Assembly: GCF_041381155.1 (NCBI RefSeq)
Contig: NC_091135.1
Span: forward strand, 49,434,086 to 49,498,085
Length of the DNA stretch: 64,000 bases
Reading direction: 5' to 3'
Source of the DNA: Argopecten irradians
Lineage: Eukaryota > Mollusca > Bivalvia > Pectinida > Pectinidae
The notes below the pieces were generated by a model. That model had not been told where the DNA came from and did not search any database. It worked only from the letters and a program-made list of their open reading frames with translations. How positions within the stretch are numbered: position 1 is the stretch's first letter; the number at the start of each line of letters is the position of its first letter. A program made the translations under genes and the position numbers. This document shows positions 5,315 through 33,556 of this stretch, piece after piece.

Positions 5315-5350
5315 TCATGTTATACAGAAGATACAAAACATAACACTTAC

Positions 5351-5614
5351 CTCCAAGTGTTCATTTTTGACGGCCAGACGCAACGCTGTCCTCCCTAGGG
5401 CGTCGATACAGTCGACGTTCAAGTCGGCGTTTCTATCCACAAGCTGCTTGACCGTCGGTACATCGCCAAACTCCGCCGCATGAAGGAATTCATCTTCAAT
5501 GTCCACCAACTGTCGTTTTTGAACAGATTTGTAACGACACAACAATTCAGCTACTGATGTAAACTGATATTTTTTACTAGTTTTAACCCCGCTCGATCTT
5601 CTTTTATGATTCAT
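5351..5614 (-). CDS. TRPC: TRPC-type cation channel, first coding exon (ankyrin start)
   Basis: The exon encodes 88 residues. TRPC channels are tetrameric plasma-membrane Ca2+/Na+ channels downstream of phospholipase C, with cytosolic N-terminal ankyrin repeats. Residues 1-35 are basic and variable. From residue 36 the TRPC ankyrin start is plain: DEFLHAAEFGDVPTVKQLV, then NVDCIDALGRTALRLAVKNE, ending in HLE, the family's conserved first repeat. The ATG at 5614 is chosen because an in-frame TAA lies a few codons upstream and a TATA box about 60 bp upstream. The exon ends GAG with donor GTAAGTGTT, phase 0. Membrane segments, pore and TRP box are not in the window and must lie further left. Other ankyrin proteins are possible, but the AEFGDVP and CIDALGRTAL pattern is typical of TRPC. 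TRPC subtype cannot be decided. Confidence 0.85.
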
Positions 5615-5674
5615 TATCTCTTGTCTACGTACTTATACCATCAAGAGACATTTCCTATCCAGCTGGCTGAAGGC

Positions 5675-5682
5675 ATTATATA
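5675..5682 (-). promoter_or_regulatory. TATA box of the TRPC exon
   Basis: On the minus strand the sequence reads TATATAAT, 61-68 bp before the ATG at 5614. Transcription would start near 5645-5650 and give a 5' UTR of about 30-40 bases. The position is right for a core promoter; initiator and downstream elements were not checked. Confidence 0.45.
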
Positions 5683-5689
5683 GACACTT

Positions 5690-8600
5690 GTGTACTTTCC
5701 TATGTAAACGTCTTTAAAAACTTAATCTCGGAAAGTGAAGCTATACCATACACCATTACGCCATTGATAGTATATCTGAAGCAATGTATATACCTCATCT
5801 TTCTTGATTTCCGTTTTGAGATGTGTTACTGGAACAAACTATGTGAAAACAGAGTGAGACCATTGCAGTGGATTTCATTATCACTGTACGGGGATGTAAC
5901 CAGCTGGCCCCGCGCGTGACGCCAATGCGCATGTCCGCTGATAAATGTTGCCTCATTAAAAAGTATCCACTGGAGATTTATAATTCCCACACTGTCAATT
6001 AGGAATGTTCACTGCCATGAAGTCGTCATATAATCTAATCTATTAGTCTTTCATCCGAGCCACGCTAGAGAACAGCTCTTAATACAACGTGTTGTGTTGG
6101 ACTGTGCATATGAAATATACCCAAGGCCAATTTGTTTATTAAGTGTACTTGGTAAACCGGAAATTTTGTAAATTATATGTTGCCGTTCAAGAAGGAAACT
6201 GAATACTTGGGAAATAATTTCTGGTGATTAAGTGGTATAATGAGCGTCATATTTTCTAACTCTGGTTTCATCATTCATTTCAGGCATAAAACTGTAAATT
6301 ACTGCTTTTACTTTGATAATAATATGAAATTACATATGTACATCAGTTCATTTGAAATGTGTGTACACGAATGATACCCAAATATGATATTTTATTTCCA
6401 TGATATATTTTTTTTGTATGTATTGATACGATACTTGGAAAATATAATGCTACACAAGCGCAAGGGAAATGTATGAATAAATGCCCAAATCAGTGATGCA
6501 CGTGTACGATCCAAATATAACATGACATCGTTTATAGGTACTCACGATTCGAGGAAATCATATCCAAGTTCAACGCGATTTCCCAAAAATGGTTTAAAGT
6601 ACCATCATCAAGTTTATCCAAAGAATATAAATGTCATTCATATGACCATGTTCATAATCGAAATACACGCTAAGCACACTCCATATCAAACGCTTTTGTA
6701 GACATCTAAAATATGGTAACAATTGAAATATCCAAGTAAAACGATTGTACCTTATTGGCCCTTTTGCGAATATGTCACATCAGAAATATTTAACTGTGTT
6801 ATGTCCAATTTACTCATTTAGCATAACACACAATATGTCGGATTGTCAACGATTGACGGTTCCACTGTAAACACTTCTCCGAGTTGTGGGGCGTCACTAT
6901 CATCTAACTGTGACAATATATACATACACCTGCTCTGTGGTACCTGCTCGGTAGGAACAGTTATAAATCATGACACAGATCTGTATAGTTTGGCTGACAA
7001 TTTTACCTCGTAGCATCCTCATCCTCTAAAACTATACGAAATTTGAAAACCAAAACTCCTTTCTCAAGGCATTAACATATATAATCCCAGTATCAGGGAC
7101 TATAGAGGTATGTTTGATAGTTTGTTGTGAGTGTCCAATTGTGACTCGAGTCTACCTTATGTCGTATCGATTGACTACGCGATGGACTATACTGGACAGG
7201 CTTACCCGACTAATAAACGGAGCAATATTTCTGATAGTATTCACAAATTATTCATTGATTTACAGCAGATAAACATCTACTCAAGCCTACTTACCGCTAT
7301 TATATCTACCGGTAATATGCAGGCAAATCTAGCGGCGTAATTTGTCGACCATGTACCATAATGCAATATTCATATTTTGCCATAAACATTGGTTGAGCTT
7401 TTTCATACTCCAGGCTGATGTTGATACAACGCATTGACTGTTATACATATTTGATGTTTATATATTATATAGAACTAATCTTTATCATCCTAGGTATTGA
7501 CGCGCTTGAGAGAGAAATTACAAAGTTTAAACCTTAATTCAATGTGCATATGAAGTGTAATCTAGCAAATGACGAATTCCAAGTACATTTGTTTTATTCA
7601 ATTATCTCAGCTGTCGCGATTCTTATAATTTGATTTCACCGGTGATATAAAAACCATCAGCCAGGTATCAATATCTTATATTTAACTGCTATCCGTATGC
7701 ACGCATGAGTAGTAACGTGTAAATTCTGAAATAATAACTACATCCCGTGGGATCTAGTTACATCAAAATTGCAAAAACGTGATCAATAGTTTCCCGTTAC
7801 AACTTTGCTAACATTTTGAAAATTGCGTGTATGAAGTACGCGCGTGTTTTTAGAGAGACTACTATAGTTCGTGTTGTGACTTCTTACTCTTTATGTTGGT
7901 GAAATTATTTGAAAGCGAAGTTAGGCACACGTAAGGACTTTGTATGCTTTACACTTTGTTCAAGGTCCACTACCTTTTCCGAGTAAAATAGGAATGTAAA
8001 ACGAGATCGATTACATTGTAGGGTCGCGAAAGTTATTAATTATGTTAATACTACATTTATCATCACCTTCTGAACAATTTAATTAAAATAGATAGAATGT
8101 TAATTTTCATAAATTACATAATTTCATAAAAACGCGGGTCGTCTTATGTTTCCCGCCGCCGTCCTAATTACCGCGAGGTAGTTGACTATCACTGTGCCAG
8201 ACGGCAAAATAACGAAATTACCTTTTTTCATATATCGCGCAGAAAAACTTGCATATGTTTGCTGTTGTGACCTCACCTTAGGCCATCGGTATATATTTTC
8301 TGGTGTTATCAATGTTTTTAAGAAACCTTTATGTTTTGCTCCGGAAAGGTAGTGGGCCTTTAAAAATATTTTTTAGAAATATACGGGGAAGGTTTGCCAT
8401 GAATCTTTAAGACTGACTTGTGCTTGTTTACTGGTCTGAATCAAAATCCTTTTATAGTTTATAAAGACATCATAATGTCGCTTAACACGTTTTTATCGAC
8501 TACGGGTATCTCAACCAACTTTGTTTGGCCAATCAATTTTTTTCTGTAAAGATGTTGAGAAAAGCGGCAATGTAGCAATAGTTTTTTGCGATATAAACGG

Positions 8601-8935
8601 CACAATGTTCTTAATATGCATAGAATTACTAATATTAATTCCAGATTACCATTTAGAACACAGCATTTCTCGATTGAACACCAAATAGTGCATTGTATAT
8701 TTATGGTTTCCATTAAATTGACAAAAAGAAACATTACGACATGTATTAATCGCTTATTAGGTCATTGTAATAGATGAATTGGCGTCAAGTCGCCGTAGAT
8801 CAGGCTTGTTTACCGTTAGATGTACAATGGTGATATTTAATGTAATATTCATAATCTGTGCATATCTGTGATGTTTTGTTCAATTAATTGGATTCCATGC
8901 AGTCCAAATATAGTTCTAACCTGAAGTATTATTTA
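5690..8935. other. Non-coding upstream region of the TRPC exon
   Basis: No exon could be supported. The block holds several GT-donor-like sites on the minus strand (6541, 7290, 8272), but the matching frames have stops, no ATG or the wrong phase. The plus ORF 7131-7340 has no family signature. Confidence 0.4.
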
Positions 8936-8938
8936 TTA

Positions 8939-9048
8939 AAAAGAGAATAGCATATGCCTTTTTTTCATATTATATCCTTTATCAGCTCGAGATCAGTCGA
9001 GAGTTGATAAAGGGTATAATATGAAAAAAGGCATATGATATTCTATTT
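8939..9048. repeat. Palindromic foldback element (hairpin)
   Basis: Arms of about 47 bp read towards each other: CATATGCCTTTTTTTCATAT on the left and ATATGAAAAAAGGCATATGA on the right, with a GATAAAGG-type inner stem and a loop of about 10 bp around CTCGAGATCAGTCGAG. This is the form of a short foldback MITE or a replication-generated inverted repeat. No coding content. Confidence 0.7.
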
Positions 9049-9289
9049 ATCACATACTTACTATCTTACTTCTGTGTTTTATAAGTGACCAATTTACCAA
9101 AAACTCAAAACCATTCAAGTATTTTTTAATAACAAAAAAATAACAAAATAATTAACAAACAATCTTTTTGGGTGCATATTATTTAGGCTGAATCATTGTC
9201 AATCGTTGTCCTTTTGTTGAAACTTTCACATTCATCAAATTGAAACACGACATTCCCTGCAAAGTAGAACCGCCACCAGATAGGAAGCT

Positions 9290-9512
9290 TCATGTTCTAG
9301 CAACATCATTTGCTAAGTTCGCCACACCATAGTTGTCAAGGCCATTAGGCTGAACGCTATGTGAAGTTTCAAGAAGCTCACTTGTTGCTATGTCATCTAA
9401 TATTTGTCTCGGTTATCGATCAATTCATCTAACTCAACTAGTCTGTTAGCCAAAATATCCCTCTCCCCCTCACCTAGGCTACTGTCATCCCGAACCACCT
9501 ATCGTCTGCCAT
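9290..9512 (-). pseudogene. Decayed coding fragment, family not recognised
   Basis: Read on the minus strand from ATG 9512, protein-like segments appear in three successive frames: MADDRWFGMTVA then a stop; GEGERDILANRLVELDELID; and ILDDIATSELLETSHSVQPN continuing to LANDVART. Together they look like one ancient ORF broken by at least two frameshifts and stops, most likely the start of a transposon protein, since it lies beside a foldback element. I cannot name the family. The alternative is chance, but the composition is unlike surrounding DNA. Confidence 0.35.
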
Positions 9513-9597
9513 TTTGACTTCCGTATACATAGAGAGAGAGTGAACGTAAAATCCCGGAATTCAGTTCAACTCCATCCGAGGTGTTCCGGGAGGTATG

Positions 9598-9655
9598 GTA
9601 AAGGGTGCGATAAAGGGGTACCCATGCGATAAAGGGGGATACGATAAAGGTAAAA
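9598..9655 (+). repeat. Short GATAAAGG-motif cluster
   Basis: The motif GCGATAAAGGG or a close variant recurs about four times in 58 bp. The same GATAAAGG word is in the foldback at 8939-9048. Probably a degenerate microsatellite derived from a repeat end. Confidence 0.4.
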
Positions 9656-9983
9656 GTGATATGACTAGAAACTCATTACTGTATCGTATATATGCAATTT
9701 GCCTGAACTAAGGAGTAAGTTTATGATAAAACAATATATAGAAATGTTCTGTGTCATATCAATTCCTCCTATGACATTAATACATGGACACCAAACGAAG
9801 CCAAGAGTTTGCAATGGAAACAATAGCGCTTCAGTTTCCTTACTAGAAGAAAATAGAAGATTGCATTACTATTACTTTACTAGATAAACAATGCAGCGTG
9901 AGGCATTCGATACAAGGGTTATAACAGTACAGTATTTTATGTCATTCATACATCACTATTGGATCCGACAGGTAAATCGAGAC

Positions 9984-12170
9984 AGACATACATATTTTTT
10001 CCGATTATAAGTACCTAATAATGACAAATTTTATTCATCTTTTTTTTTCGATCCATCCTTAATTCATTAGAACCTTCGATCGAAATACGGGTATTATTAT
10101 TTTTAATTATTTTTTTTTATATTTGTATGAATATTGCAAGTATAAATCTGGTAAATAAGTAACCACTATATATTTTATTGTCGAAAAGAGGATCCGGTAC
10201 TTTCTATTGATAGTAAGCCAATTGATTTTTTTTTCTAAACGAAACCCAAATCATTAAATGTGGAACAAGCCCTGGATTATCAAAATTATATAGCATAATA
10301 TTACATGGGACACAAGAAACGCAAACAAAATGTACAAAGGAAAATAACTGATGCTGTTGTGTATTCCCCATTGACTTCGAATTTAGAAGATACTAAAAAA
10401 CAGTGCGCTTGATTAACTTGTTGTTACGTAAATACAAAATATCGTCAATATACTGTAAACGCGAGAACGAATTTACGCTAATTACGTGAAGGTCGTGAAT
10501 AAGTTCCCCTCGAGTAATTATGTCTAAGTGTAAGCGTATCTATCGCTGAAAATCCAATGCATGGAAATCCTGAAATCAAACGCACACGTGAACATAATCA
10601 CGACTACAGTACATGGGCGACATTTATGAATTCTAATGGTTACCTCATTATAGTATAGTAATATATTGTCAGCTTCAGGGAAAAAAAAGAACCTTAAAGT
10701 AAATAATCGGGGGAAAATGGTGTTAATACATGCAGTTTAATTTCTTATGAGACAGAAAAATAAAATGGCCAAAACTGGGTAACGTTTGGAGAGTTCGACA
10801 GTCGTTTTGATATGCAAGGAATTTTGGAAGTCTAATGGACGCCTTTAGAGTGGTTTGCATTGCCCGACTTTTCACTTTAAAAGCCTGATAAAGAACAGTA
10901 TTCATCTGAAAGCCGAACGAAATTGTTGACTTGAACTTAAATAACCTCCATTTTTATTGTCGATGTATTTCCATAAGAGGAGATAAATGTTTTACGAAAG
11001 AAGCTGGTGCATAATTTACAACTATGCGATTCCGGCGTCGTTTGCCTTTCTTTGCGGTCATTAAAGTCTGTCCGATAGACATACATATTTTTTCCGATTA
11101 TAAGAACCTAATAATGACAAATTTTATTCATCTTTTTTTTTCGATCCATCCTTAATTCATTAGAACCTTCGATCGAAATACGGGTATTATTATTTTTAAT
11201 TATTTTTTTTATATTTGTATGAATATTGCAAGTATAAATCTGGTAAATAAGTAACCACTATATATTTTATTGTCGAAAAGAGGATCCGGTACTTTCTATT
11301 GATAGTAAGCCAATTGATTTTTTTTTCTAAACGAAACCCAAATCATTAAATGTGGAACAAGCCCTGGATTATCAAAATTATATAGCATAATATTACATGG
11401 GACACAAGAAACGCAAACAAAATGTACAAAGGAAAATAACTGATGCTGTTGTGTATTCCCCATTGACTTCGAATTTAGAAGATACTAAAAAACAGTGCGC
11501 TTGATTAACTTGTTGTTACGTAAATACAAAATATCGTCAATATACTGTAAACGCGAGAACGAATTTACGCTAATTACGTGAAGGTCGTGAATAAGTTCCC
11601 CTCGAGTAATTATGTCTAAGTGTAAGCGTATCTATCGCTGAAAATCCAATGCATGGAAATCCTGAAATCAAACGCACACGTGAACATAATCACGACTACA
11701 GTACATGGGCGACATTTATGAATTCTAATGGTTACCTCATTATAGTATAGTAATATATTGTCAGCTTCAGGGAAAAAAAAGAACCTTAAAGTAAATAATC
11801 GGGGGAAAATGGTGTTAATACATGCAGTTTAATTTCTTATGAGACAGAAAAATAAAATGGCCAAAACTGGGTAACGTTTGGAGAGTTCGACAGTCGTTTT
11901 GATATGCAAGGAATTTTGGAAGTCTAATGGACGCCTTTAGAGTGGTTTGCATTGCCCGACTTTTCACTTTAAAAGCCTGATAAAGAACAGTATTCATCTG
12001 AAAGCCGAACGAAATTGTTGACTTGAACTTAAATAACCTCCATTTTTATTGTCGATGTATTTCCATAAGAGGAGATAAATGTTTTACGAAAGAAGCTGGT
12101 GCATAATTTACAACTATGCGATTCCGGCGTCGTTTGCCTTTCTTTGCGGTCATTAAAGTCTGTCCGATAG
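9984..12170 (+). repeat. 1.09-kb tandem duplication (two copies)
   Basis: Copy 1 spans about 9984-11076 and copy 2 about 11077-12170, joined head to tail with a 2-base overlap. By eye the copies are nearly identical: one substitution near 10011 against 11103 and a one-base difference in a T run. Each copy carries the same 60-codon minus-strand ORF (10905-10723 and 11997-11815), which has no recognisable domain and is probably not a gene. The high identity indicates a very recent duplication, or an assembly artefact from two haplotypes. Confidence 0.9.
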
Positions 12171-12570
12171 AACTGAGACCTTGAAGGTAGGGTGTTGTGG
12201 CTGCTGCTCATAGGCGAGTTAGACAAGCGCCTACCTCAGGCTTTACCTCCTCCCTGTGAGGAAGACGTCAGTTTCTGTCCCCTGTTCACGACACATCATA
12301 GTCTGTTGAAGTGGCTTGTAACGTTAGCATTAAGGGAATTGGATGCAAAGGACATCCGTTGTTAGTATAATATGACTATGTGGGGTGTTTTACGGTGTCG
12401 TCGACTTTTTGCTTATAGCACTATAAAAAAGGTATTAAATTCAATATTACAAATAAGATACAGCAGGAATATACATCTGCCTTCTAAAACATAAACAAAA
12501 CTAATTTATCACATGACAGACCGTCCTTAAATGACTGTAAATAGGACGAAAATCACAATAACCAAAATAA
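12171..12570 (+). repeat. SINE-like family copy (diverged)
   Basis: This carries the blocks of the dispersed family seen best at 46.1-46.7 kb: TTCTGTCCCCTG, then a GTTAGTATAATATGAC block, a block with TATAGCACTATAAAAA, and a terminal ATAGGACG. It is diverged and has internal insertions. Confidence 0.5.
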
Positions 12571-13625
12571 AAGTTATCTCCGTCGGTTTAGGCCGAGGGT
12601 TCTCCGATCCTATCCAATGTAGAGTAGAGTAATGACTAGGAATTACCTCCTGTTCAATATTGATACATAATGACGTTCATGTGATAATGACGCCATGAAA
12701 AACGTAGAAAGCAACGAAAACTTCATATTTCGCTGTCAACAATTCGGTGTGTGATCGGTCAACATTTCTCGGACATAAATCTGTACTTATGAACAGTTTC
12801 CAGTATAGCTAGTACATATATTGGGAATACAAAGCAAATGTGTTACTATTGTGTATAATCTACAGCCTTATACTTGCGATGTCGTTTACTAATCATTAAA
12901 ACCAGTCCGATGGAGACACATTTGTGATGTAACCAATTAGGCCCATTCTGTTGCTTGTGCTAAATACCATATTACATTGTATTATAAATGTACACTTCAC
13001 AACCCCTAGAATATGTTTAGAAGAGCCCCGTTCTCATAACGCAGTGACTAAACATAATAGGTCTAGTTAGATACAAGTTTCTTCTGATTAGGCTTTCTAA
13101 AATAGATATATATATATAGAAAATATAAAAAGCACACAATAAAATGTCAAATATGTAATTATAAGATGTGAACTCAGTTAGTCACTAAATTGTGCTGATG
13201 ATTAACTATAATTAAACTACTTATGTAATTGAGGCTTTGAATAACATTGTAACACATTATACATTTGATTAATGCCAAAGAATGATACCACAAATAACTA
13301 ATGTCCTCACGTCGAATATTTAGTGACTTCTAATGAACAGAGTGAACAGATCCTTATGGGGACGCGTTTACTTCCAGTCTATACCTTTTCATGATTATCT
13401 ATAGATATGGGGTGGCAAACGTCTAGATATTTTATAATAGCCATCAATCAATAGGGCAGTATCAATAATACGAACGGCAGCCGTGTGTCAAAGATACCCT
13501 GGTATCAGCGACATATTTCATAATAGACATCATAGTCCGAGATTGGCTGATTGATTAAAGTCCTATTGTCAGCTAAGGTCATTAAAGGACTACCTCACCT
13601 GTTTACAATTTGTTGTTTGTGAATG
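12571..13625. other. Non-coding stretch
   Basis: No exon, RNA gene or clear repeat beyond a short TATATA run near 13108 was identified. Probably intronic or intergenic. Confidence 0.4.
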
Positions 13626-13629
13626 TCTT

Positions 13630-13795
13630 CACCACGGAAGCGAACGCTCAAGTCAATGCCAAATGGTAAGCGGTGTCAAGGCAAACGTTGGTAAGAAGAC
13701 CTTCTGTTAGGAAGAACAGAAATCATAATATCGTCTTCTACGATCAGTTGGGGAAGGGTGCAGCAGATATCATTTTAACCCCCTACCTCAAGGAC
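13630..13795 (-). repeat. SINE-like family fragment, reverse orientation
   Basis: The reverse complement of the family's 5' half: on the plus strand it reads GGTGTCAAGGCAAACGTT, then a GAAGA-rich part and TACGATCAGTTGGGG before GCAGCAGATA. The same order is seen at 25.2-25.4 kb and 34.1-34.25 kb, also in reverse. Confidence 0.5.
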
Positions 13796-14084
13796 AGGAA
13801 AACTAAATTGTTTACATAAAGGTTTTGTTTCCATTCCTTATTCTTTTGGTACATAGATAAATGATAGTTTGAAGAATTCTACTAAGATATGTGTGTAACT
13901 GTCGCCTACAGTGATATAAGTACTGGTGAGGAAATCAGTGAATAGTATTTGTATCAATCGTTATACCACATAAAACGTTGTTATCCTCTCAGCTAGGGCG
14001 TGTTCAGTATTCTATAATCCGCTTTGCTCATTGTCACTTGATGATACTCTGCTACCGACTCGTTATAGTTAATCGTTATAGTTA

Positions 14085-14560: not shown

Positions 14561-16813
14561 GACGACACAAAAATCAGGAAACAGTTTAGTGATTAAGATT
14601 TTAGTGGACTTCGTAATAATACTTCCATGCTGAATACGTGTTAGATATGAAATCAATGTGTTTAATGTTTTAGAGTTAAATGTATTATTTCTGTTATTAA
14701 GGTTTAATTTTATTCTATTATTAATTACATCCTAATGGCGAAGCGAACACATTAATGTGGATCACGAATAAGGGCATGAAAAACCTTGGGTATTGGCCAC
14801 ACTTTAATTTCGTCTATTTACAATTTTACACCATTTGACCTATACATAACAACCACTCGGCTATACAATCCACCTTCTCTGTGTCCCTTCGCTGGTAGTT
14901 ATAGACAGATTCGACTGTAAATATTCCTATCTTAGTCTGGGTTAAACTATCTCCATAATACTGATTTCAAAATGATGATCGCAATGAACAATTAACCTGA
15001 TTCTATTAGAGAATTTTCAGATAGTATCTAACCATAAGGTTAGTTAGTGCCTGTTTGGACTATTGTCTAAATGGTCCGATTACATATCTGGAATATGTAG
15101 TTTAATGTCCCAGAAGGTTGTGTTCTCATTACAGCTCAATATTTTGAAATATTCTCAGAATTGTCGGTAATGCGTCGTTAAATGAAAGGTCCATTAACGG
15201 TTTTGATTTAAACGTTCGACGTAATAAATCCATTAACAAGGCAAAAACAAACTAATTCTAGTATATAAGTAAAACAAATGATATTTCTACAGAAAGTGAA
15301 CCCTTGGGGAGGAAGACCCGAGTGAAAGATTACGACACTTTATCGTTTTTTTCGTACGAATCGAAAAAGGAAAGTTTGAACTGATAAGATAAAAACCAAT
15401 ATTTCAAGAAACTATTGTTAAATTTTTAAATCATAATACGTATGGATACATAAAAATATATTCTAATTATAATATTTTTAAAATAATTACTAAATTGTAA
15501 CATTGAAAATCAATTAATAATGAAGCCATGCTGTATGACTTAATTAAGATTGTATTGAGAGCTAGATGTACTTCCTGGTATCAGGTAGACACAAACTATT
15601 AGATTTTCTATTTCATTTTTACCTTGTCATATACAAATATAAACTTAATACAGAAAATTACGTGTGTGTATATATAACGCCATTAAGATTCGATTTTCAG
15701 AATCTTACGAGCGAATATTAATCAGGAACTATATACTGTATACTACACGTAGTACATCCCTATGGACGACAGTGTTATACCAGTGTATTGATTATCTATT
15801 ATGGCTCCTTTTTATTGTTTGTGAGATGACTCATGCCCCAAATTTTCTGAGCAAATCAAAATAAAACAATATTGGACACAGGAAATCAATAAATGAAGTA
15901 AAGTAAATGACAGTAAAGATTAATATATAACCTATCTTCTGGGTTGGTAACTGACACATTTCACGTTACTGCGTAGCTTTGTCTATATAATGCCTTCAGT
16001 ACAGCAGTCATCTCTATTAGATATTTCAAAGTTATCTACCCTTTGTGTTATTATAGACAATGACGTCTTCAGTTTGGGAGTGAAACTCCAAAATATGTCG
16101 TTATTGCTGCCGAATACATGGCGTAACATTAAACAATGGCCCGATAGTGAGAAAATCATATCCAAAGTTATATATATAATTATCATAGCAATACAGTTCA
16201 CAAGGAAAAAAAACATACAAAAAGGTGCAATCAAATCACATCAAGGAGAATGATAACCAACATACATAAAAAAATACGGGATAATAACGAAATATTATTT
16301 TTCTTGAAATACCAGGTATTACTTTTAATTTAACTAATTCGCATGTCTACCATAAACTCCTTATATTTCAGTAGTATCAGCATACATACAGAGGTTTAAT
16401 ATGACAAACATGATCACCATAATATGATCACATTTATACAGCTCCATCAAGCTGACACGGCCTTATGCATTGTCAACAATGGTTCGTGCTGGAGGCAGGA
16501 ATAATGGAAATTACCTAAATCCAAAATTTAAATGCCAATTTTGTAAAATAATGAATGGGAAATTACAAATTTATGTTTAATAGGATTTTGCATTTATATG
16601 CCAATGAGGTTTAATGGAGTCTAACTGCATTAATATGTATGTATCAATACTTATAATTTTAGAGCTCATCAGTTTAAAAAACAATCTGTCACACACTTAT
16701 AAAAGTTTTTAATTAAACAAATATAGACTCAATGTATTACCACTATTGTTTGTATATGCAGTTGGTATACCTACACAATATTTACAGTCACACGACGCAA
16801 GACATGTACTTAC
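14561..16813. other. Non-coding stretch
   Basis: AT-rich DNA with ORFs at 15664-15864 and 15983-16253 that overlap each other on both strands and lack splice context. Nothing is supported. Confidence 0.4.
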
Positions 16814-16969
16814 GGTTTTCGCTGATTCAATGGATGTCCTTGACATCAAACTCATCCGATTTGAACGTTTCCGCCATGGTCGCTTTTTCGCGCTGGGCAT
16901 TTTCTGCAATTTAACAGCAGATAGGACGGTTATAAAACTTGCTGGGTGAGCGTTCCCGGATTTCTTCAT
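16814..16969 (-). CDS. Candidate alternative first coding exon A (52 codons)
   Basis: The minus-strand ORF opens with ATG at 16969 (MKKSGNAHPASFITVLSAVK), runs through a very basic stretch (AKKRPWRKRSNR) and ends AAAACC followed by the consensus donor GTAAGTAC. The exon length is an exact multiple of three (phase 0), like the TRPC exon and the other candidates. Base composition is richer in G+C than its surroundings. A TATATA-like box lies about 105 bp upstream (17073-17082). The product is unknown; a cytosolic basic N-terminus would suit an ion channel or adaptor. A plus-strand ORF (16746-16949) overlaps the same DNA and is the main competing reading. Confidence 0.45.
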
Positions 16970-22458: not shown

Positions 22459-22551
22459 CACAAGACCGGACCGCCGCCTTCGTCTCCCGTGGTTATCTTT
22501 ATCGTTTTCCTCCTTTTTGTCTGACTGTCGCGCCCATTTATTTTTCCCCAT
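22459..22551 (-). CDS. Candidate alternative first coding exon B (31 codons)
   Basis: ATG at 22551 begins MGKNKWARQSDKKEENDKDN and continues into a run of basic residues (HGRRRRRSGLV). It ends CTTGTG followed by donor GTGAGTATT, phase 0. The charged, low-hydrophobicity sequence fits a cytosolic N-terminus. The CG-rich codons stand out from the AT-rich flanks, which supports coding. No upstream acceptor is seen, so it would be a transcription-start exon. Function is unknown; I group it with exons A and C-E because strand, phase and architecture agree. Confidence 0.5.
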
Positions 22552-25190
22552 TTTGAGTTTTTCCAACGTTGAATTTTTCAACTCAATTTAAACTGTCATT
22601 CTAAATTAATTGACACCACGCCAAAATAGCTTACATATACAACACATGGAATCACATGGAATGGTTGCATTACGTAAACAATGGTGCGTGTTCGTTAAAG
22701 AGCTAAAACTCCCTAATCAATATTGTAATTAATCTTTATCTGGCGATCGCCCAGTCCAGATCACTTAAAACTTTCTATTCAGTGTTATGATGACCTTCTG
22801 ATTGTATATTAAACGACAAGGCTTAAACACACAACAACCATTTAAAGCATAATATCTACATTTACAAATGTATTATTCTACATTGATAAGGACATGGAGA
22901 ATTATTGCTTAATTATAAAAAAGGACAAAACCTTATTGATAGAATTGGCCATCAAACTAACCAGGCGTAAGCAATTGTTGACCTTCCCGAAGTGATACTA
23001 TTTGAAGGTCAACGAGTGCAGCGACTAAGGTATCTCAGACAACGCCCTTTCCTAGTCTAAATATGTTTTTATCAAACTAGTAAAAGAATCCTTACTGGAT
23101 ACATTGATTTATATATACCATGTATATTTTTATGTAATATATTTTTTTTTATTTTAAATTAAAACTCCTAATCTGGGATTTAACTCGTGACATAATGAAC
23201 TTTTCAATTGATGAAAGATGTCAGTTATACAATAAAGAGATCAAACTTATTTAAAATGACATTATTTTAGAACAAGAAAACTCATGTTTTATATTCTAAG
23301 TACACAATATAAAGCAAAAATACAAATGAAAATATCGTCACTTATATCATGGATATCAAACAGATTCACATTTGTGATCCTTAAGTAAAGTCACGAAATC
23401 ATTGATAGGCATTTGTATCACGTAAGTAATGAGAGTTATTATTCTTGCAAAACTGATTAAGACTGCACAGAATACAGTAACACATCTATATCAACACTAA
23501 TGAAGGGGAAGTGGAGTTCGAGTGTAAACATACATTAGCATACCAATGGTTCAGATAGTGATGTGCAATAAATCATGTTAATGCACGGAGAATAAAACAA
23601 TAAATCGAAAAACAGGGACAATAGCCACATCATGACATGACATATAACGGAACTAAGACAAGGGGAAGGATGGAATATACAGCATCGTGATCAAAGTCAA
23701 TTTAGACTAAAATACTGATTTAGAATACGATTATGATTCTTCCAGTGTAATCACATCAAAGCTATTAATTTCAAATTTTATGATTATACATGGGGTTTTT
23801 TCAATAATCTAATTGTTTTGTCATTAACAGTTCGATTGTAAACGATTGAGGTGCATTTCCATTGAGACAATAAACTACAAGTGTTCGCTCAAATTTTGTC
23901 TGTCATGCATTGAGTGTTAAGATTGTATTTACTGAACACAAGTTAACATGATAATATTGTATTATCTTTTGAACCGTTACGATACTCATTATCGACGGTA
24001 AATTGTATGTAATTTTTAGCATTCGTTATATTTGCCTGTACAATATTTCGCTATGATATACAATATCGGCAACATTTTGGAGCATTAACTATGCAACACG
24101 CAATGTCACGTTCGTTACCCGTGATATTTAATCAACAGCTACCTAGTCATCAGTTATAGCAATTTCTTTTTAAGGTTGAAATTTAAAAAAGGAATCCAAT
24201 TAAAGAAAGTAATAAAATTTGGTTGAAACAACTCAAGCACAAAATCAAGACGAAAATAAACCCAATGTATACAAACAGCTTAATTACATATTTATCGAAT
24301 GGTTGTGTTTAGAACCAGTGTAATTTATTTAATTTTCCTATTCTAACGAGCTACATTGAATGCTAAATTGAATTGTTTAAATAAATCTGAAAAATCAGAC
24401 ACAATTAACACAAAATCCACGCTAATATACATAGTAAATTTATAACATATCAACCTAGACATCAAATCTAATGAAGATAGAATGTAGCATCGCAATTATC
24501 ATCTCCATAGAATTCTGTCGCTATATCAGGAGAGGTAACTCTGCCATACCAGTAATTGCCTGGGACAAATACCACAGACGATATGGCTCGAGTGGTCATA
24601 CCTATGATTGTGTCAATGCTTGAAGGGTGAACATATAAACGTTAATATAAACTTCACGTAGTTTCCCTTTGTTTAATAAAATATCCGTTTCCAAAGATAT
24701 ACTTTTCAAATGTGTATCACATTAAAAATTAACACATGCCATAATTAAATGAGTCATAGTCAATGTTTAATATTTTATTTCTACATGTATATATTATCTA
24801 ATAGCTAGTATTAGGGTTTGTGATCTTATACAGGTCGAGGAAACTCATTTTCCTTCAATAAATGTTATAATTGGATGTTGAATCTAATTGGTTTATATTA
24901 AACTTCTGGTAGAGGAAGCCTTTCAAACCTAAATTCAATTTTATTTTCAATAAATTTACATGACAGTCAATATCATCCGTTGTGTTTAGGAAGTTTAGAA
25001 TGAATCATAGTGCACAAGGGCGATATCTAAATTGTCAATAAATTATCGATATGATATTATTCCTCACATCTGCCATGACGCCACTTCTCTTTTAGGTATT
25101 ACATGACGGTTCACGCCAGTGAAGAAGTCTGTAATGAATGCAGCCGAAGACACTAAGCAACACACCCCATCCGGTCACATACTGGCAACA
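22552..25190. other. Non-coding stretch
   Basis: AT-rich, with homopolymer T runs near 23140. No exon, RNA gene or clear repeat was identified. Confidence 0.4.
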
Positions 25191-25490
25191 GGCGAACCAG
25201 TCATCCCATTCCCGGTATGCTGAGCGGGACATTTGTGTGTCTTGGCAGGGGACAGAACCCGGAGACTATCCCACAGGAAGTGCGGCGGTGTCAAGGGAAA
25301 CGTTAGAAAGAAGAAAGTTAGTTAGGAAGAAGATAAAAGATAAGATCCTAAATTTAGTCGCCTTTTACCATCATTCAATAGAGAGGGCAACAGGTACTAT
25401 TTAAACGCCCTATGTACAAGTCAGTTCATGGTTGGAGTAAAGAGAGTTAAATGACTGATTTGCCCGTTGTCAGTATAATGTGAAAGTTTA
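25191..25490 (-). repeat. SINE-like family copy, reverse, plus forward fragment
   Basis: From about 25225 to 25425 the plus strand reads the reverse complement of the family's 5' half: GGGGACAGAACCC, GGTGTCAAGGGAAACGTTAG, then TAGTCGCCTTTTACCATCA and ACGCCCTATGTACAAG. It is followed by a forward fragment containing TTGCCCGTTGTCAGTATAAT (25459-25478). The two halves in opposite orientation suggest nested insertion or inversion. The 88-codon ORF over it is a repeat shadow. Confidence 0.55.
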
Positions 25491-25812
25491 GTAGAAAACA
25501 AATTTACCGGTTAGTAAATCCATGTATAAATACCATCCATTTGCCTAACATAGCCATTTGAAATTTCCGATTGAAAAATGTATGTCTCTAGCCGCCATGT
25601 AAGTATGTGTGCAGTAGAGTTGTTTTGTCGGAGTTGATTGGCTCTCGAAAATTAATTGACCAATCAACGCCGAGAAAACAAATGTACTACACACATATCA
25701 ACATGGCGGCTAGAGACACACGTTTTTTTCAATCGGAAATTTCAAAAAGCTGTATTGAGCAAATGGATGGTATATAGATAAATACTAACATACCGGTAAG
25801 TTTGTTTTTTAC
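25491..25812. mobile_element. Long foldback MITE, arms about 155 bp
   Basis: The outer arms pair AAATTTACCGGTTAGTA with TACTAACATACCGGTAAG, then CCATCCATTTG with CAAATGGATGG, AAATTTCCGATTGAAAAA with its reverse complement, and TCTCTAGCCGCCATGT with ACATGGCGGCTAGAGA. The centre is GATTGGCTCTCGAAAATTAA. The whole can fold into a hairpin of about 320 bases. It has no coding capacity, so it is a non-autonomous element mobilised in trans, family unknown. Confidence 0.8.
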
Positions 25813-26215
25813 CAAACTTAAATTCCTATGAAGCTGAAATGTTGACATGCAGTGGTTTTTGAGCTACCCATTAGAGCCCTGGCGTGTTTATCGGAGGACA
25901 CCACAGTGTCCAACCAGTTGAAATCTGGCTGTTTCCGAAGTTTCTGGATACCTAGTGACATTTATACGGCATGATATATATTGTATCATATACCAAATTA
26001 AAGATAAATTATCTGGCTGTCGATTGAGAGTATTCCTATTGTCATATTCTATACGGTTGGTTAATAATCATACTTTTTCTGAAATTGGGTAGTGTTATGT
26101 GGCCGGCCGAGTTATAGACCTTGACCCAGTATTATACTTATACTTATATTAGAAACGAACACCTGTGATGTGACAAGGTGAGTTGTTCTGTGATTTTGGC
26201 AGTTCAGTATAATTT
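25813..26215. other. Non-coding stretch
   Basis: Nothing recognisable; a GGCCGGCC site at 26101-26108 is the only notable word. Confidence 0.35.
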
Positions 26216-26370
26216 AGTGAGATAACACTGTAAAAGAGTCCCACTATATTAAGTAAACAGACACATCACAAATTAATTTTAGTTTCCCAAAACATACACA
26301 AAGCTACCATAGCGCGCACAGTGGGGGCCGTCCTCAAGTGGCCTTAGATGCTACTGGGATATTAAAGTTT
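26216..26370 (+). repeat. SINE-like family fragment (3' half, diverged)
   Basis: It follows the order of the 3' half of the family: GATAACACTGTAAAA, TCCCACTATATTAAG, CAAAACATACACAAAG, GGCCGTCCTCAAGTGGCC and GGGATATTAAA. Each block is a diverged match to the copy ending near 46700. Confidence 0.4.
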
Positions 26371-27161
26371 AAACAACAAGCATCCCACCGTTGTTTTTCT
26401 AGCAAAGACCTGGCTCGTCATCCCACTCGCTTGATACGGAAAGTTCATAACGTTTATAAACTACCACTTGTATAAACTGTGGTGTCTAGATATCAAATGC
26501 CTTCCTCGCAGGGATGAACTATCAGGCAACAACAGAGGTAGTGGCAACATATCTTTAGATAGTCCTTGATGGACATTACATCTTGAAGATGTACCACGAG
26601 TGGAAATAAAAAGAACATATAAAATGTCAAAATATGGAGAATTGAAAACAGAATTGTATTCAAATGTTTTCCTACTTTATCTATATAGCTTTTATCACAA
26701 AATAATAAATAACATAAAATACAGCTATGTTAATCCATCAACGTTCAATTCATCAATTAATTGTCGGAAACAAGTACCTATAATATTATGTGATATTATT
26801 CCCTACGTTCGAAACCATAAATTTTTATAAAAGTAAAGTAAGGTAAATCTCCTGTATTTCGATTTAAAAATCCTAAGATTATAAATGATACGACGTTATG
26901 GTATTTCACTCATCGCATTTAAATATTTTGCGAGCATTCTGAAATGACAGATTTCCATGTGGTTAACGATAAAATTAATGAAGGAGAACCTTACAGTTAA
27001 ACCCTATTTCAATTGAAATGTTACCAATCACAAATGAGTGATAAGGTCATACCATATCAAACTTGAATCGATATACAATTATTCCTTGTGGGAATATCAT
27101 TACTACAGATTTGATAGAACTATAAATTAATGGATTGAACATCATCAAAATACATCGTTAC
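26371..27161. other. Non-coding stretch
   Basis: No supported exon. ORF 26600-26830 is Lys/Tyr/Ile-rich, as expected by chance in AT-rich DNA. Confidence 0.4.
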
Positions 27162-27212
27162 CTCCTCTGTTTCGGCGTTATGAGCGGTCATCCTTTCCTT
27201 GACATTTTCCAT
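27162..27212 (-). CDS. Candidate alternative first coding exon C (17 codons)
   Basis: ATG at 27212 gives MENVKERMTAHNAETEE and then donor GTAACG after GAGGAG, phase 0. It is short, acidic and hydrophilic. The start context ACGATGGAA is good for an animal start (G at +4). On its own such a short piece would be weak; it is listed because its phase, strand and design match four other candidates and the TRPC exon. A TTTAAATA box lies only 10-17 bp upstream, too near to be its TATA box if the ATG is used. Confidence 0.35.
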
Positions 27213-28995
27213 CGTAATTTCCTATTTAAACACACAGACTCCGTGTAAGATTTATCAAACAGTACTTCATGAGCAATCCGGATATTGTTCACAAGATAGG
27301 TCCATATATTACAATACTCTAGAAAATAACGTGCTGGTCACAAGATAATTGGATATCCATCAGTATCAGCTTATACGGAATCCATCATCCTACTGCCGGT
27401 GGCATCGCTGTGTTCTAATGAAACTCGCCATCGCATATATCTCCTACATCTAACATGATAGATATTTTGACATTTTGGAGCATTGATACCTAAATGGTGT
27501 TTATTTAGCATAATGAATGACTGAATTGTGATAATGACATTTTAACGTTAATCCATTAATATATAAATTCTTATAACAGTGACTGTTGCTATTCCCTTGG
27601 TATAACTATTAATATTTAGCTGAATATGTTGCAGCCGATACCAAACGCCCTTCACATTTCATATATACACCGAATAGGCCTGTTAACGTTTCGTCTCATT
27701 AGCATGATTGGGATTAATAGACGTTATTAAAACAATAGTGTATTATACATCACATGCTTGCAACAACCAACAATTCTCGAATTACATTTGTTCAATTAAA
27801 AGGCTAAAAAACACACATTGAACTCCTTTTAAAAAATCAACAAGCTAGCATCAGTTAAATGCAAAAAAGAGGTCCATGGACTATAACGAGCACATGAGCT
27901 CTGAAATGCAACAGAAAGAATCCAGTCTCGCTCCGATTTCAGCCCCTTGATTTGTATACAATAATACATTAATATGTGCATTGGCCGGCATGTATGATGC
28001 TACACATCATATCGGGTCTTTTGTCTCCAGTGATCGTAAAACCATTCGGTCGATATTTCAGCATCACCACCAGTGACCAGTACGACCAAGTATGACAGTC
28101 AGTCTTTAAACCTCATGAAACCATGCTACATACCATGATACCAGGCATGGGTGATTACAATTAATTACTCACAAAAAGTAATCGAACTTATTTTCAAACA
28201 GTTTTCGAAAAAACAAACTTGACTTACTACTTTTCATCTTTTATAACAATATTTTCATAATTTCTACAATTAGATGGCATTTCAAGACCTGTTAGTAAGA
28301 TATAAGATTCGGTATGATTACTTTTCTATTTTAGATGTACACCTGTCCTTAATCATACTCAATAAATTCACGGTCACGTGGACAACCTCAGTAAAAACGT
28401 CTGGAAGGTCTAGTTACCTGATATAGAATATGTAGCACGCAGAGAAAAAGGCTACCAGGATAGTTTAATATAAATGACCTTGACCATAATTTCTTGTGGG
28501 TGAAAAGCCCGTCAATTTGACCAATGACAATATCTAGTTTAAGGTTTCTTTGTTTCAATGAAACAATCTGATTGTGTTATGATATTCAATTAAGATTACA
28601 CGTAAGGTTACATAAGGGTATTGTCTTGTACAAATATCAGTAAAATGTAATTTTATTCCATAAATGTACACTTTACTCCTATAATGTTGGAAAATCATGA
28701 TACTCGTAATAATTTTTAAACTTTAGTTTGAATAAAAATCATTAACGATTAAGTCTCCAGCATTTCTTTAATTTCTTTTATATAGTCGGAAAATAACATT
28801 CTTGGAATTATAAACATTGAAAGTAAACGATAATCACTTAGTTTAGTTTGCATAGCAAATTATTTCTTATATCGTAAACTCTATACAATCCAGTTCCTTC
28901 AGGACACTCGTCAATCCATTTCCTTCAGGGAATTAATTGGTTGATCAACTAATTTTAAACATTCCACTGACTCCAAAACCTCTTTGCCCGTTTGA
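27213..28995. other. Non-coding stretch
   Basis: No supported feature. Confidence 0.4.
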
Positions 28996-29137
28996 CCAGG
29001 CCCCAGGATTATGAAACAGTCTTAGACTTAAGTTTTTGGTTAGTCAATCAAAAATGAGGTAACGTTTTATAACGTCATCTGAGATTGGCTAAGTCTAAGT
29101 TTAAGACTTAAGAATATTTCGTGATCTTGGGGCCAGG
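28996..29137. mobile_element. Foldback MITE, about 140 bp
   Basis: Terminal arms pair CAGGCCCCAGGATTATGAAA with TTTCGTGATCTTGGGGCCAG, followed inward by CTTAGACTTAAG with CTTAAGTCTTAAACTTAGAC-type matches and a palindromic centre around AACGTTTTATAACGT. This is the layout of a small non-autonomous DNA transposon. The superfamily is not identified and no clear target duplication was recognised. Confidence 0.75.
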
Positions 29138-31020
29138 TATTGTATAAAGAAATAAGTGCCCTCAATAACACCAAAAAAGTATCAGATGAAAATAGATAAT
29201 TTTTCCAAAATCTCTCACGACTTTAAATAGGTAACTCGAGCATCCAAAGATAAATAGAAAAGAAAAAAGTATTTTTTTCACTAATTATCACTAAAGTTCA
29301 CATACATGTAGATAATTAGGATGTCTTGAACTTGTCCTTTGCAAGGTTATGAATTCAAGGTCAAGGTTTCTTTTACTATTTTTAGGAAACATTGTCAAAT
29401 ATCTCGTGGTTTCATATTCTCTCGCGGGTTTTCATTAAACATGTACAAATACCTCAAATTATCGTGAACAGGTTCGATTTTTTAGGGTTATCTGATCGTA
29501 TTAGATGTTGAGATGTCACCATATTTGCGCGAAATTTAAAACCAATAACACAGTAATAAACAGTCTCTCCCCAAACGATAGGATTTACGCAAATGAGGGT
29601 TTGAAAGGCATTATCTAACCTATTCTTTTATCAGATGCCTTCCGTTTTATTCGTTTCGAATTTTAAAATTTTTGCTCGCTATAGCCTCGCAAAAAATGAA
29701 AAATTCTAAACTTGTATCATAAATCTTTTATAAAGGGAAGCTTTTGACTTTGACAGATTCTCTATTAGTGTAAATGATACGTAGGACTTCTCGAAAATCA
29801 AGTGTCTACGGCGACAGAATTTTATCTCAGCAAAATATATACAGTATAAGACCAGTTTGCTTTAGAATTACTTAACAATTGTCATATCACTCTTTATTTC
29901 TCTCGGCAGGCGGGTATCATGAAACAAAAGATGGCATGCATATATAATCCATTCAGGGGATAAGGACGTCATTATAATCATGACCGAGTAAGCAGAAACT
30001 TGTTTTCTGTATGTTTTACAGCTTCAGACGCCCACGTCAGTGAAAGAGGATTATGATACCCAGTACAAAATGCCAATGTCCAATTAGTTATCATTCTGGA
30101 TATTATTCTATATAGCGACAATTTAATCCTCGAATCGTGACTCGATCAAATACGATGATTAATCTCTCATAAAGACATTCATGACATATCAACAACATAA
30201 AACCGTCGTCGTTCTTTCAGAGCATCGAGTCAACAAAATAATTTCCTGACCTATTTGTTTGTTATTCTTGGAAAATAAAAACAAAATGATATACCAGTTT
30301 CTTTGGTGAACGTGCACTTCTTTGCATAAACTGTACTGTCTATGACAAATGCATGTGCACATACTTTAGGTAAAGAATTACACAAAAATGTAATGCTTGC
30401 TATTACAAAAAGTTAATTTAGGGACAGAATATATCTTGTATGAATCTAATGGAAATAACATTAGTTTTCTTTTGAACAAGATACGAAATTTATCGTTGGC
30501 ACAGCGTTCCGTGAATTTTCCCTTATTATTCATCGAAATCGGGTACACATTTGAAAAGAAAGTTTAGATCACCCGTTTCTTTCCTTAAGCCAACCAGATC
30601 ACTCCTTTCATTCTGGTGACGTAGAAGCTCCGCCTACTTTTAGTCTTTCCAGCTGATTGCCTAGCTGATTTTGTGTATGTATCTGATGTTGTAACAACAA
30701 CATGTTGTGGATGTTCTGTAACTTTAAGATTATCCTACTTCCATTTTATTCACTTCTGTTATGTCTCGACAATACTTTATGAAATCCATTTATATCTGTG
30801 ACGACAACGTCACCAATTGCCAATAATATTTAAGTAATGAAAATGATCCAATGAAAGCAGACGTTATATCAACATTATTTTAGACTTTTGTTTGTGCTTT
30901 TACTTCTACGGATGGTAATTGATCAACATCAACAATGAAAAAAAATATTTAACAACATGTTCTGGGTAGTTTTGTTTTAAATACTATTCACAAAACAATA
31001 TCATACATAGAACAACCTAC
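29138..31020. other. Non-coding stretch
   Basis: No supported exon. A relatively G+C-richer spot at 30610-30650 (TGGTGACGTAGAAGCTCCGC) could be promoter-like, but no transcript unit can be assigned. Confidence 0.35.
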
Positions 31021-31101
31021 CTGTAGTACGCTTGCCACAGAATCCCACAGCGCTTCATGGCGAAGTTTTTCACGTGGTGACTTAGACTTCTTTTTCCACA
31101 T
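31021..31101 (-). CDS. Candidate alternative first coding exon D (27 codons)
   Basis: ATG at 31101 begins MWKKKSKSPREKLRHEALWD and ends SVASVLQ at CTACAG followed by donor GTAGGT, phase 0. A TATATAAT sequence lies 30-37 bp upstream of the ATG (31131-31138), so transcription would start almost at the ATG. A lysine-rich start leads into a likely amphipathic helix (EKLRHEALWDSVASVLQ). The junction and base composition support coding. Product unknown; grouped with A-C and E. Confidence 0.5.
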
Positions 31102-31130
31102 TTTGTAAAGGTCAGTTTTTCACATTGGTG

Positions 31131-31138
31131 ATTATATA
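31131..31138 (-). promoter_or_regulatory. TATA-like box upstream of candidate exon D
   Basis: TATATAAT on the minus strand, the same octamer as upstream of the TRPC exon. The implied leader before the ATG is only a few bases, so either initiation is leaderless-like or the box is coincidental. Confidence 0.3.
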
Positions 31139-33481
31139 CTGTAGACCACTGAAAATAAGATTATAATTAAACAAAATGGTCGTACATTTTTAGGCAAACG
31201 CTTCTCAAACTATCATGTCAACCGTTCGTGAGTAGTTTCATCCTTGTTTATTTGGTGCTTCATATCACACCATGAGTTGACATATTTGTGGTTTACAAAA
31301 GACAATGTTATATCAATATCAAGATTCATTTTTTTTTATTTGATATTCGGTGTTCAGTAACGAGCATAACAACGAATGTTTTTACTTGACGAACAAATCA
31401 TTCCAGAGCAGTTTCGATTGTTTTGTTTTTAAGGACTGTTTTATTGGTAGACGGCTTCGTTTGAAAAGCGAAATAAAACAACAATGAGTTGACAATTAAA
31501 GTTGTTATTATTCTCTAATATTTAAATGTATTTTGCATTTGGCCTAATTAAAGAGTAAAACTGCTCACATAAACAACAGGGAGATAATATGTGCTGTATT
31601 AATATATTTTTATAAGTTCATAGTGACATATATAGTTAGGTAATGGGAACATGCATCTTTTGCTTCTATATCCATATCATATATACTATACAGTATTATA
31701 TATAAAAATAAGTTCAGATTCCATAAAGCTTTAATAAAGCAGAGTGTACATTATACAGTTCATAAACAAATAATAAAGAACTCATGGACCATGCAAATAC
31801 TCAATAAAACTGTTCTATTTGAACTTATTCGGATTTTCGTTTTACATATAACATTTACACAATTATCGTTCAACCATCTTAACCAATGTCTTAATTTAGT
31901 GTTGTATTCTTCCAAAATGTGTACCAAACAGTTATGTTTATATAAAACAAATATTTTGCCATGGTTTTTTTTTAAAGAAATTCTTTAGCTAAAAAAAACT
32001 TTCTCGTGCACGCATGCTCTTAATCTACATTTATATTATGTTATCACAATTCAATTGTTTTGTTACGCTGAAGACTTTTATTAGAGCATAAATATCTCAA
32101 AAATAAGTACACACTTCTGTGGTATATCTGCCACATCATCCTAAAAGAATGCCTTTGTGTGCTGACCTACCGTTTCGCAGTCGTGGACCGAAACAGATAT
32201 TTCTCCTAATGATATTATTTGTATTCACCAGTGGTCAATTCATAAGTTCACAGCTCAAACACGCGTCCGGAAGCTTTGTTAGCGTAGCCCATTAATACAT
32301 TAATACTCCTAGCACTGTGACTCCACAAAAGCGCAAAACTTGTTTTTGTGTATAACAGTTTCCAATTTGAATTGTTAAATATAAGTAATGAACACCTAAT
32401 CTAAAAGGAATTTTCCCATGACAGGTTTAAATACTATCTTCATACTACGTGGACGACACACAGACAGCTTCCATATCTATAAGCAGGGGAGACATTACTT
32501 CTATAAAAGGATTTCGGTAGACGGAGACAAAATTCGATATCACGATAGTTAGCGAGACTCTCACAAATATATCTATATTTATGTATCCTAATTTATATTG
32601 GATTTCATTGTTTCAAATAATTCTGATTTTAATTGGAACAAGAACCTTGAATTCACGCCATCTAAGATACCACTATGCATTTATTTCTAACACAACATTC
32701 AGAATGCTACAGAACTACTTTTTATTTTATCAATTCCCCAGTAATACAAATTTTGGAAGTCAGTCTGGCTCAAATATACAATGGCAGCCATAAATAAAAG
32801 GTGATATTATTTACTAACAACAGTGAACAAAGGAGTTCTTAAGAAAATAAACTGTCCTTCTGGACTGACAATGGCTCGTTGAACAAGTAAACTTTATATC
32901 CTCAAACTTGTACTTTACGGGCATATGATTTCAAAGCAATAACGCGTAATTAATGAATAGATAACATAATATTATATAAAGTCTTTGAAGACAATTATAA
33001 AGAATTTGAAAAATGGGTAATATTGTTCAAAGTCAGCTTCATGAAATACGGAGTTTACTTAAATTATTTAGAAACATTTTCCTTACGTTCAGTTAACATA
33101 AATTGAAAATTAGGTTTGCTAGCTAGAACGTACCGTCATAGATAATTATAGTATTAAATATGTAACTATGGATTTATTAAAGATTTTAAGCTTCAATACT
33201 GTGTTGGTACTATAATTAATATTCACGCACACTACATGATATCAACTTTTCACTTAAAACCTGGAGTATGTTTAACCTTCATAAAGATTAATAAACAAAT
33301 TAGAAAGAGTTCACGTGAATTTAGAATCAAAGGTCATCATTATGACACGTTAACCCTTACACGAGATTCGAGAAATCTATTTAGAATCAAAGCTAACCTC
33401 AAATGTATGCGTTGATTCACACGTTCCCTAAGAACCTAAAGATTTTGGGACGAGACCAACGAAATGGACGATAAGACTTAC
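31139..33481. other. Non-coding stretch
   Basis: No supported exon. The ORFs 31791-31988 and 32581-32793 have AT-driven composition without splice context. Confidence 0.4.
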
Positions 33482-33556
33482 CTGTTGTATTGATGTATCG
33501 AGCTTGGTAAGGAAACTACTTCTATGTAGATAGGGTGTGTCTGGTACGATTGCCAT
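33482..33556 (-). CDS. Candidate alternative first coding exon E (25 codons)
   Basis: ATG at 33556 begins MAIVPDTPYLHRSSFLTKLD and ends TSIQQ at CAACAG followed by the perfect donor GTAAGT, phase 0. The start context TTCGATGGC has G at +4. It is the farthest of the series, 28 kb upstream of the TRPC exon. Product unknown. If spliced like the others it would give another N-terminus to the same protein. Confidence 0.5.

Follow-up and report, generated by a model that had tools for sequence, protein, structure and literature searches.

A scallop TRPC channel gene with at least two interchangeable starts, and probably more

Results

The window, by which is meant the whole 64-kb stretch of DNA analysed, carries on its minus strand an ankyrin-repeat open reading frame of a TRPC channel gene and, upstream of it, five short open reading frames, A to E (Table 1). 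The places, ATG starts and phase-0 ends given for these six in an initial annotation are all reproduced here. In each of them the start is the first ATG past an in-frame stop situated 12 to 39 nt upstream, and position −3 of the ATG is A in five of the six and T in E. Donors that had all been called good are so for B, D, E and the TRPC open reading frame but not for C (3.5) and A (1.8), as scored on a human matrix; the weakest donor is that of exon A, the confirmed one. As a pattern only, TATA[AT]A words lie ahead of the start codons of the local tail described below (−68 and −178), A (−109), D (−37) and E (−225), and none is present within 250 nt upstream of the B or C ATG. The six peptides are unrelated to each other, as previously proposed: in 15 pairwise comparisons of A–E and the local tail with 500 shuffles each, the closest pair is A–E (5/500) and all others give at least 51/500. 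They are therefore not duplicated homologues of the UGT1/protocadherin tandem type.

Table 1. Minus-strand features of the TRPC locus (donor scores in parentheses are from a human matrix)
Feature	Position	Strand	Length	Donor	Remarks
Common exon 2 of the TRPC gene	5351..5509	-	53 codons	GTAAGT at 5350	LVDIEDEFLHAAEFGD...VKNEHLE; ankyrin-repeat start; phase 0
Acceptor CAG (3′), also codon Q35 of the local tail	5510..5512	-			A|LVD junction in P0001; dual use
Local first tail	5510..5614	-	35 codons		MNHKRRSSGV...LLCRYKSVQKRQ; contiguous with exon 2
TRPC open reading frame	5614-5351	-	88 codons	GTAAGT (7.9)	phase 0
TATATA, possible promoter element	5677..5682	-			at -68 from the local ATG, with another at -178; pattern only
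Exon A open reading frame	16969-16814	-	52 codons	GTAAGT at 16813 (1.8)	phase 0
Exon A, second half	16814..16903	-	30 codons	GTAAGT at 16813	KMPSAKKRPWRKRSNRMSLMSRTSIESAKT
Exon A, first half	16904..16969	-	22 codons		MKKSGNAHPASFITVLSAVKLQ
CAG, second candidate in-frame acceptor	16904..16906	-			KLQ|KMPS, phase 0; Ostrea edulis X2 tail junction
Candidate first exon B	22459..22551	-	31 codons	GTGAGT (5.9)	GC 0.51; phase 0; no convincing relative
Candidate first exon C, doubtful	27162..27212	-	17 codons	GTAACG (3.5)	GC 0.47; phase 0; no convincing relative
Candidate first exon D	31021..31101	-	27 codons	GTAGGT (7.1)	GC 0.47; phase 0; TATATA 37 nt 5′ of ATG; no convincing relative
Candidate first exon E	33482..33556	-	25 codons	GTAAGT (8.9)	GC 0.41; phase 0; T at -3, weak start context; no convincing relative

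The assignment of the gene to the TRPC channels is borne out by domain and protein searches. The open reading frame 5614-5351 (-) shows Ank_4 and Ank above the Pfam cut-off, and in a phmmer search of the PDB its residues 37–88 match TRPC3 and TRPC6 chains with an E-value of about 1e-11, two designed ankyrin proteins ranking above these chains on summed repeats. The best database matches are TRPC3/7-like, and scallop TRPC3-like proteins are the top two matches in each of two protein searches. The open reading frame thus carries N-terminal ankyrin repeats of the TRPC type. A tblastn search with four TRPC proteins gives no convincing further TRPC exon in the 64-kb window (one stray match, E = 0.55) and no exon for the six-helix pore or TRP box, so the gene extends past the left edge of the window. 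The Mizuhopecten orthologue, P0001, bears PF00520, PF08344 and the EWKFAR motif. The available part of a survey of Chlamys farreri TRP genes names this motif and counts four genes in the scallop TRPC family (PMC8539334).

No Pfam match at cut-off is present in the six frames of 5.7–35.7 kb (stops read as G), so the earlier statement that no other gene lies between the exons holds at the domain level for that span. Rfam and tRNA scans of the window found nothing. By reading, 40889-41224 and 52568-52996 (+) look like SLC7/APC amino-acid transporter exons transcribed away from the TRPC gene, and 60736-63055 (+) holds reverse-transcriptase-like open reading frames of a non-LTR element, within which 61588-62369 is a 392-base tandem duplication, 99% matching. 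A 20-base tandem repeat of about 168 copies occupies 47344-50738. A stretch at about 1510-1625 (+), with A-box/B-box-like words, resembles a tRNA-derived short repeat by eye; ARAGORN found no tRNA.

Exon A is found at the start of P0001, the Mizuhopecten yessoensis protein named at source as short transient receptor potential channel 3-like isoform X2. The two share 49 of 52 residues, and tblastn gives 92% identity over 53. In P0001 the exon A sequence runs directly into LVDIEDEF, i.e. the residues coded by 5509-5351, and the whole product of 5509-5351 is identical to P0001 residues 53–105 and is also contained in P0002 of Pecten. Because P0001 joins A to LVDIEDEF exactly, the acceptor is the AG at 5511-5510 and the common exon begins at 5509. 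This acceptor scores poorly (−6.25, 44th percentile of AGs). The initial annotation had treated the TRPC first exon as a single unit with the shared acceptor past 5351. It is instead a composite with the acceptor inside it (KRQ|LVDIEDEF), and an exon after 5351 as the shared acceptor is ruled out, since the orthologous model joins at 5509. Judged by this junction, the TRPC gene has exon A among its alternative first exons.

The second half of exon A is, on the protein alignments, conserved in bivalves and gastropods. It is present in Ruditapes, Magallana, Mytilus, Ostrea, Mya, Aplysia, Haliotis, Patella and others, and comparison with each of six other molluscs gives 0–2/2000 shuffles. It is basic and serine-rich, with a W, a basic run and then S.R.S..S..S, and the local tail has no such segment. 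W32, S36, R38, S40, S43 and S46 are invariant in the 12 sequences chosen for alignment. The first half gives 1 (Ruditapes), 5 (Magallana), 36 (Mytilus) and 0 (Aplysia) per 2000 shuffles, and no similarity to Ostrea X2 (1363/2000).

A second in-frame CAG divides the two halves of exon A. Isoform X2 of Ostrea edulis has an unrelated tail ahead of TMSNSKRRLWRRR, which aligns with KMPSAKKRPWRKR of A (KK|TMSNSKRR, protein level), and gastropod models display several different tails ahead of the equivalent VDMP/VDIP. The CAG at 16906-16904 has an acceptor score in the 92nd percentile. We infer that upstream first exons may join A in phase 0 at the CAG before 16903, which would offer a ready site for B–E.

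The segment just ahead of 5509 is a tail in its own right. Pecten maximus P0002 opens with a close copy of it (0/2000 shuffles), followed by the same exon 2. P0001 and P0002, gene models by source naming from other species, thus have different N-termini with their own ATG on one protein, A in the former and the local tail in the latter. From these N-termini follow two alternative starts in the window, A spliced and the local tail read through, and the cytosolic tail is, as first suggested, the part that changes. As to the shared acceptor, A joins before 5509 and the local tail reads through it; B–E have phase 0 only.

The local tail is conserved in part, in some bivalves. It resembles P0063 and P0072 (0/2000 shuffles each) and the oyster-like P0086 (16/2000), and is weakly like P0003 (60/2000), P0078 (67/2000) and P0071 (102/2000), with P0064 at 201/2000. 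Similarity is not detectable to P0067 (753/2000), mussel-like P0095 (714), Sinanodonta P0007 (1173) or gastropod-like P0096 (1572/2000) and P0094 (1818/2000), the terms oyster-, mussel- and gastropod-like being our reading of those proteins. Intermediates link local-type tails: P0086–P0078, P0078–P0067 and P0067–P0072 give 0/2000 each and P0064–P0086 23/2000. The pairs P0086–P0067 (1992/2000) and P0095–P0067 (1255/2000) show no tail similarity. Local-type tails are found in many short database open reading frames. Two contigs labelled lgn, which we take to be Logan, of 3.1 and 3.7 kb hold whole channels of 923 and 937 aa with read-through tails (P0020 and P0013), and so look like spliced transcripts. 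These whole-channel contigs argue that read-through transcripts exist.

Of 44 non-A N-termini, which include near-identical oyster-like open reading frames and are not independent, 40 have a Q directly before the junction, against 0 of 21 A-type N-termini (65 rows, P0071 reassigned). This Q is the CAG of the acceptor. The four exceptions are P0031, P0039, P0021, whose first exon is spliced, and P0030, which begins with the motif. The 65 proteins that fit the pattern come from 98 fetched; of the 33 dropped, 16 belong to a paralogous clade, 11 are other ankyrin proteins, five are diverged rows or TRPC pieces (P0028, P0033, P0036, P0097, P0098) and one, P0019, is A-type with residue L. Ascertainment accounts for part of the signature, since ORF finders run exons on into introns. 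In Pomacea P0021, MKGLSLAL is followed directly by FADVEEEF; in P0020 and P0093 about 19–20 extra in-frame residues, the last of them Q, come after it, as would be seen if an intron were used as coding sequence.

All five upstream open reading frames had been proposed as candidate alternative first exons of one TRPC gene. Comparison with mollusc TRPC proteins upholds this for A, with its junction in P0001 and its relatives in other molluscs, but gives membership of B–E no support. Two protein searches holding B–E (candidate lengths of about 447–1421 aa and 101–320 aa, from a 0.55–1.75 rule) produced no convincing relative of them, nor did a comparison with each of the 98 fetched proteins over its first 200 residues. 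This lack is weak evidence, because the database shows only 90%-identity cluster representatives, which could hide isoforms differing in a short tail. Several low shuffle counts were rejected as signs of relationship: D–Mytilus P0006 (1/200), B–P0049 and B–P0010 (2/200 each), C–P0024 and E–P0001 (7/200 each), E–Elysia (18/500, the best in that round), and, among the 98 proteins, B–P0082 and D–P0006 (0/100, once each, with none for C and E), which is chance level.

The phase agreement of the open reading frames had been put at about 1 in 240 by chance. That argument is post hoc; a permissive count (donor ≥ 1.8) on the minus strand from 5.7 to 36.5 kb yields 19 ATG-to-donor combinations of mixed phase, 8 in phase 0 and 4 and 7 in the others. 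Under a stricter rule with cut-offs picked after the fact (donor ≥ 3.5 and GC ≥ 0.40), only B, C, D and E remain in the same 30.8 kb, all in phase 0. At least four phase-0 candidates occur in 0/600 order-2 and 1/600 order-4 Markov simulations. With donor ≥ 5.9 and GC ≥ 0.40 there are three phase-0 candidates (B, D, E) against a simulated mean of 0.07, and at least three with such a donor occur in 1/600 (order 2) and 0/600 (order 4); a first run of 150 order-4 simulations gave the same picture. Controls under the stricter rule give three candidates on the plus strand, one in phase 0, three on the reversed plus strand, all in phase 0, and one on the reversed minus strand in another phase. The minus strand right of 36.5 kb gives 11 candidates, two in phase 0, one of them with a donor ≥ 5.9.

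Compared with 319 other open reading frames, A–E rank in the top 2–17% for GC content. By codon-position composition each of B–E scores highest of its three frames, though weakly, in the coding one, and another frame is best for A; the test is uninformative because it fails on the confirmed exon. Per-codon composition against the same 319 gives no separation for B (fraction 0.75), D (0.63), E (0.29) or A (0.67), and C alone stands out (0.013). On balance, B is somewhat favoured as a further first exon, and the same slight preference applies to D and to E. For C this is doubtful.

Discussion

The window very probably holds the 5′ end of a scallop TRPC3/6/7-like gene read leftward, in which alternative first exons swap the cytosolic tail: A and the local tail, with B, D and E as probable further members and C as a less certain one. 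The gene would thus have at least two interchangeable starts, and probably more. Transcription would presumably begin from separate promoters, one for each first exon, and the channel would receive a different short cytosolic tail ahead of the first ankyrin repeat in each case. Splicing would carry exon A across 11.3 kb, in phase 0, to the acceptor before 5509, and the local tail, beginning just upstream of that acceptor, would read straight through it. B, D and E, and with less confidence C, could join either the acceptor before 5509 or the CAG inside A, in phase 0 either way. The second-half segment of A would suit basophilic kinases. Since A has the basic serine-rich segment and the local tail lacks it, the choice of promoter would decide whether the channel carries a likely phosphorylation segment.

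The strongest competitor, which we judge somewhat improbable, is that only A and the local tail are TRPC first exons and that B–E are chance ATG-to-donor open reading frames picked by eye. It draws on the lack of relatives of B–E, on the 19 permissive combinations of mixed phase and on two controls, namely the reversed plus strand, where three of three candidates are in phase 0, and the minus strand right of 36.5 kb, where two of 11 are. Against it, B, D and E pair strong donors with raised GC and phase 0, a combination matched in 1/600 and 0/600 simulations, and blastn (E 1e-5) finds no self-match of the window within 300 bases of B, D or E. B–E could also be first exons that open a different minus-strand transcript, for instance a long non-coding RNA or a small unannotated gene within the gap, since first-exon donors alone name no gene. 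This is very improbable: the minus strand of 5.7–35.7 kb has no Pfam domain at cut-off, and the acceptors downstream, taken from orthologous proteins, are the phase-0 ones before 5509 and, presumably, before 16903.

For the local tail, the corresponding doubt is that it is no real first exon, exon 2 having been mechanically prolonged into the intron as an ORF and gene models having taken this over. Many of its database copies are short open reading frames ending soon past exon 2, as in unspliced DNA, and any in-frame CAG acceptor yields a Q before the junction. Yet with the Q removed the tail in the window is still like P0072 (0/2000 shuffles) and the oyster-like P0086 (16/2000), and in the whole-channel contigs P0013 and P0020 the reading frame continues across the junction, so that extension of this kind is improbable.

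A bolder form of the first-exon explanation is a nested bank of six members, in which both in-frame CAGs (before 5509 and before 16903) would be coding sequence as well as acceptor. E, D, C and B would join half of A or exon 2, and A and the local tail would read through, producing combinatorial tails in use since early molluscs. We offer this tentatively, as rather less probable than not.

First-exon banks are already known, in plectin and UGT1, and the arrangement proposed here is a variant on a mollusc TRPC gene. In the available text of PMC11471635, mutually exclusive exon 1 of Drosophila TrpA1, giving TRPA1(A) and TRPA1(B), replaces the amino terminus and changes gating. The likeness is that the choice of exon 1 swaps the N-terminus of one ankyrin-repeat TRP channel. 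TrpA1, as covered there, differs in belonging to another TRP subfamily and having two choices, whereas the scallop TRPC gene would have at least two and perhaps six, one of its tails reading through the acceptor used by the other. The plectin bank (PMC8468861) belongs to a cytoskeletal linker, and that text, so far as available, does not mention a read-through first exon; the scallop case is a channel with a read-through tail. UGT1 and the protocadherins are similar in having tandem variable first exons upstream of common exons, each with its own promoter in UGT1. Their variable exons are long homologues of one another, unlike A–E and the local tail, which are short and not alike. No account of alternative first exons in mollusc TRPC genes was found among the matches listed (best 20 of 683, 20 of 21 and 10 of 534; open-access main texts), and the word "alternative" is absent from the main text, as available, of the Chlamys farreri survey (PMC8539334).

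If the proposed arrangement is correct, the layout is a clear case of a splice acceptor itself kept as protein-coding sequence, and tissue-specific promoters could tune one TRPC channel per cell type, e.g. eye, ganglion or muscle. Tuning by the choice of tail is suggested because the exon 1 swap in fly TrpA1 changes what the channel senses (PMC11471635, in the part available). Many different N-termini are also seen in a paralogous mollusc TRPC clade (P0040–P0055), where they precede E-E-(E/D)-F-I-(Y/F)-AAEFGD and include isoform-labelled models.
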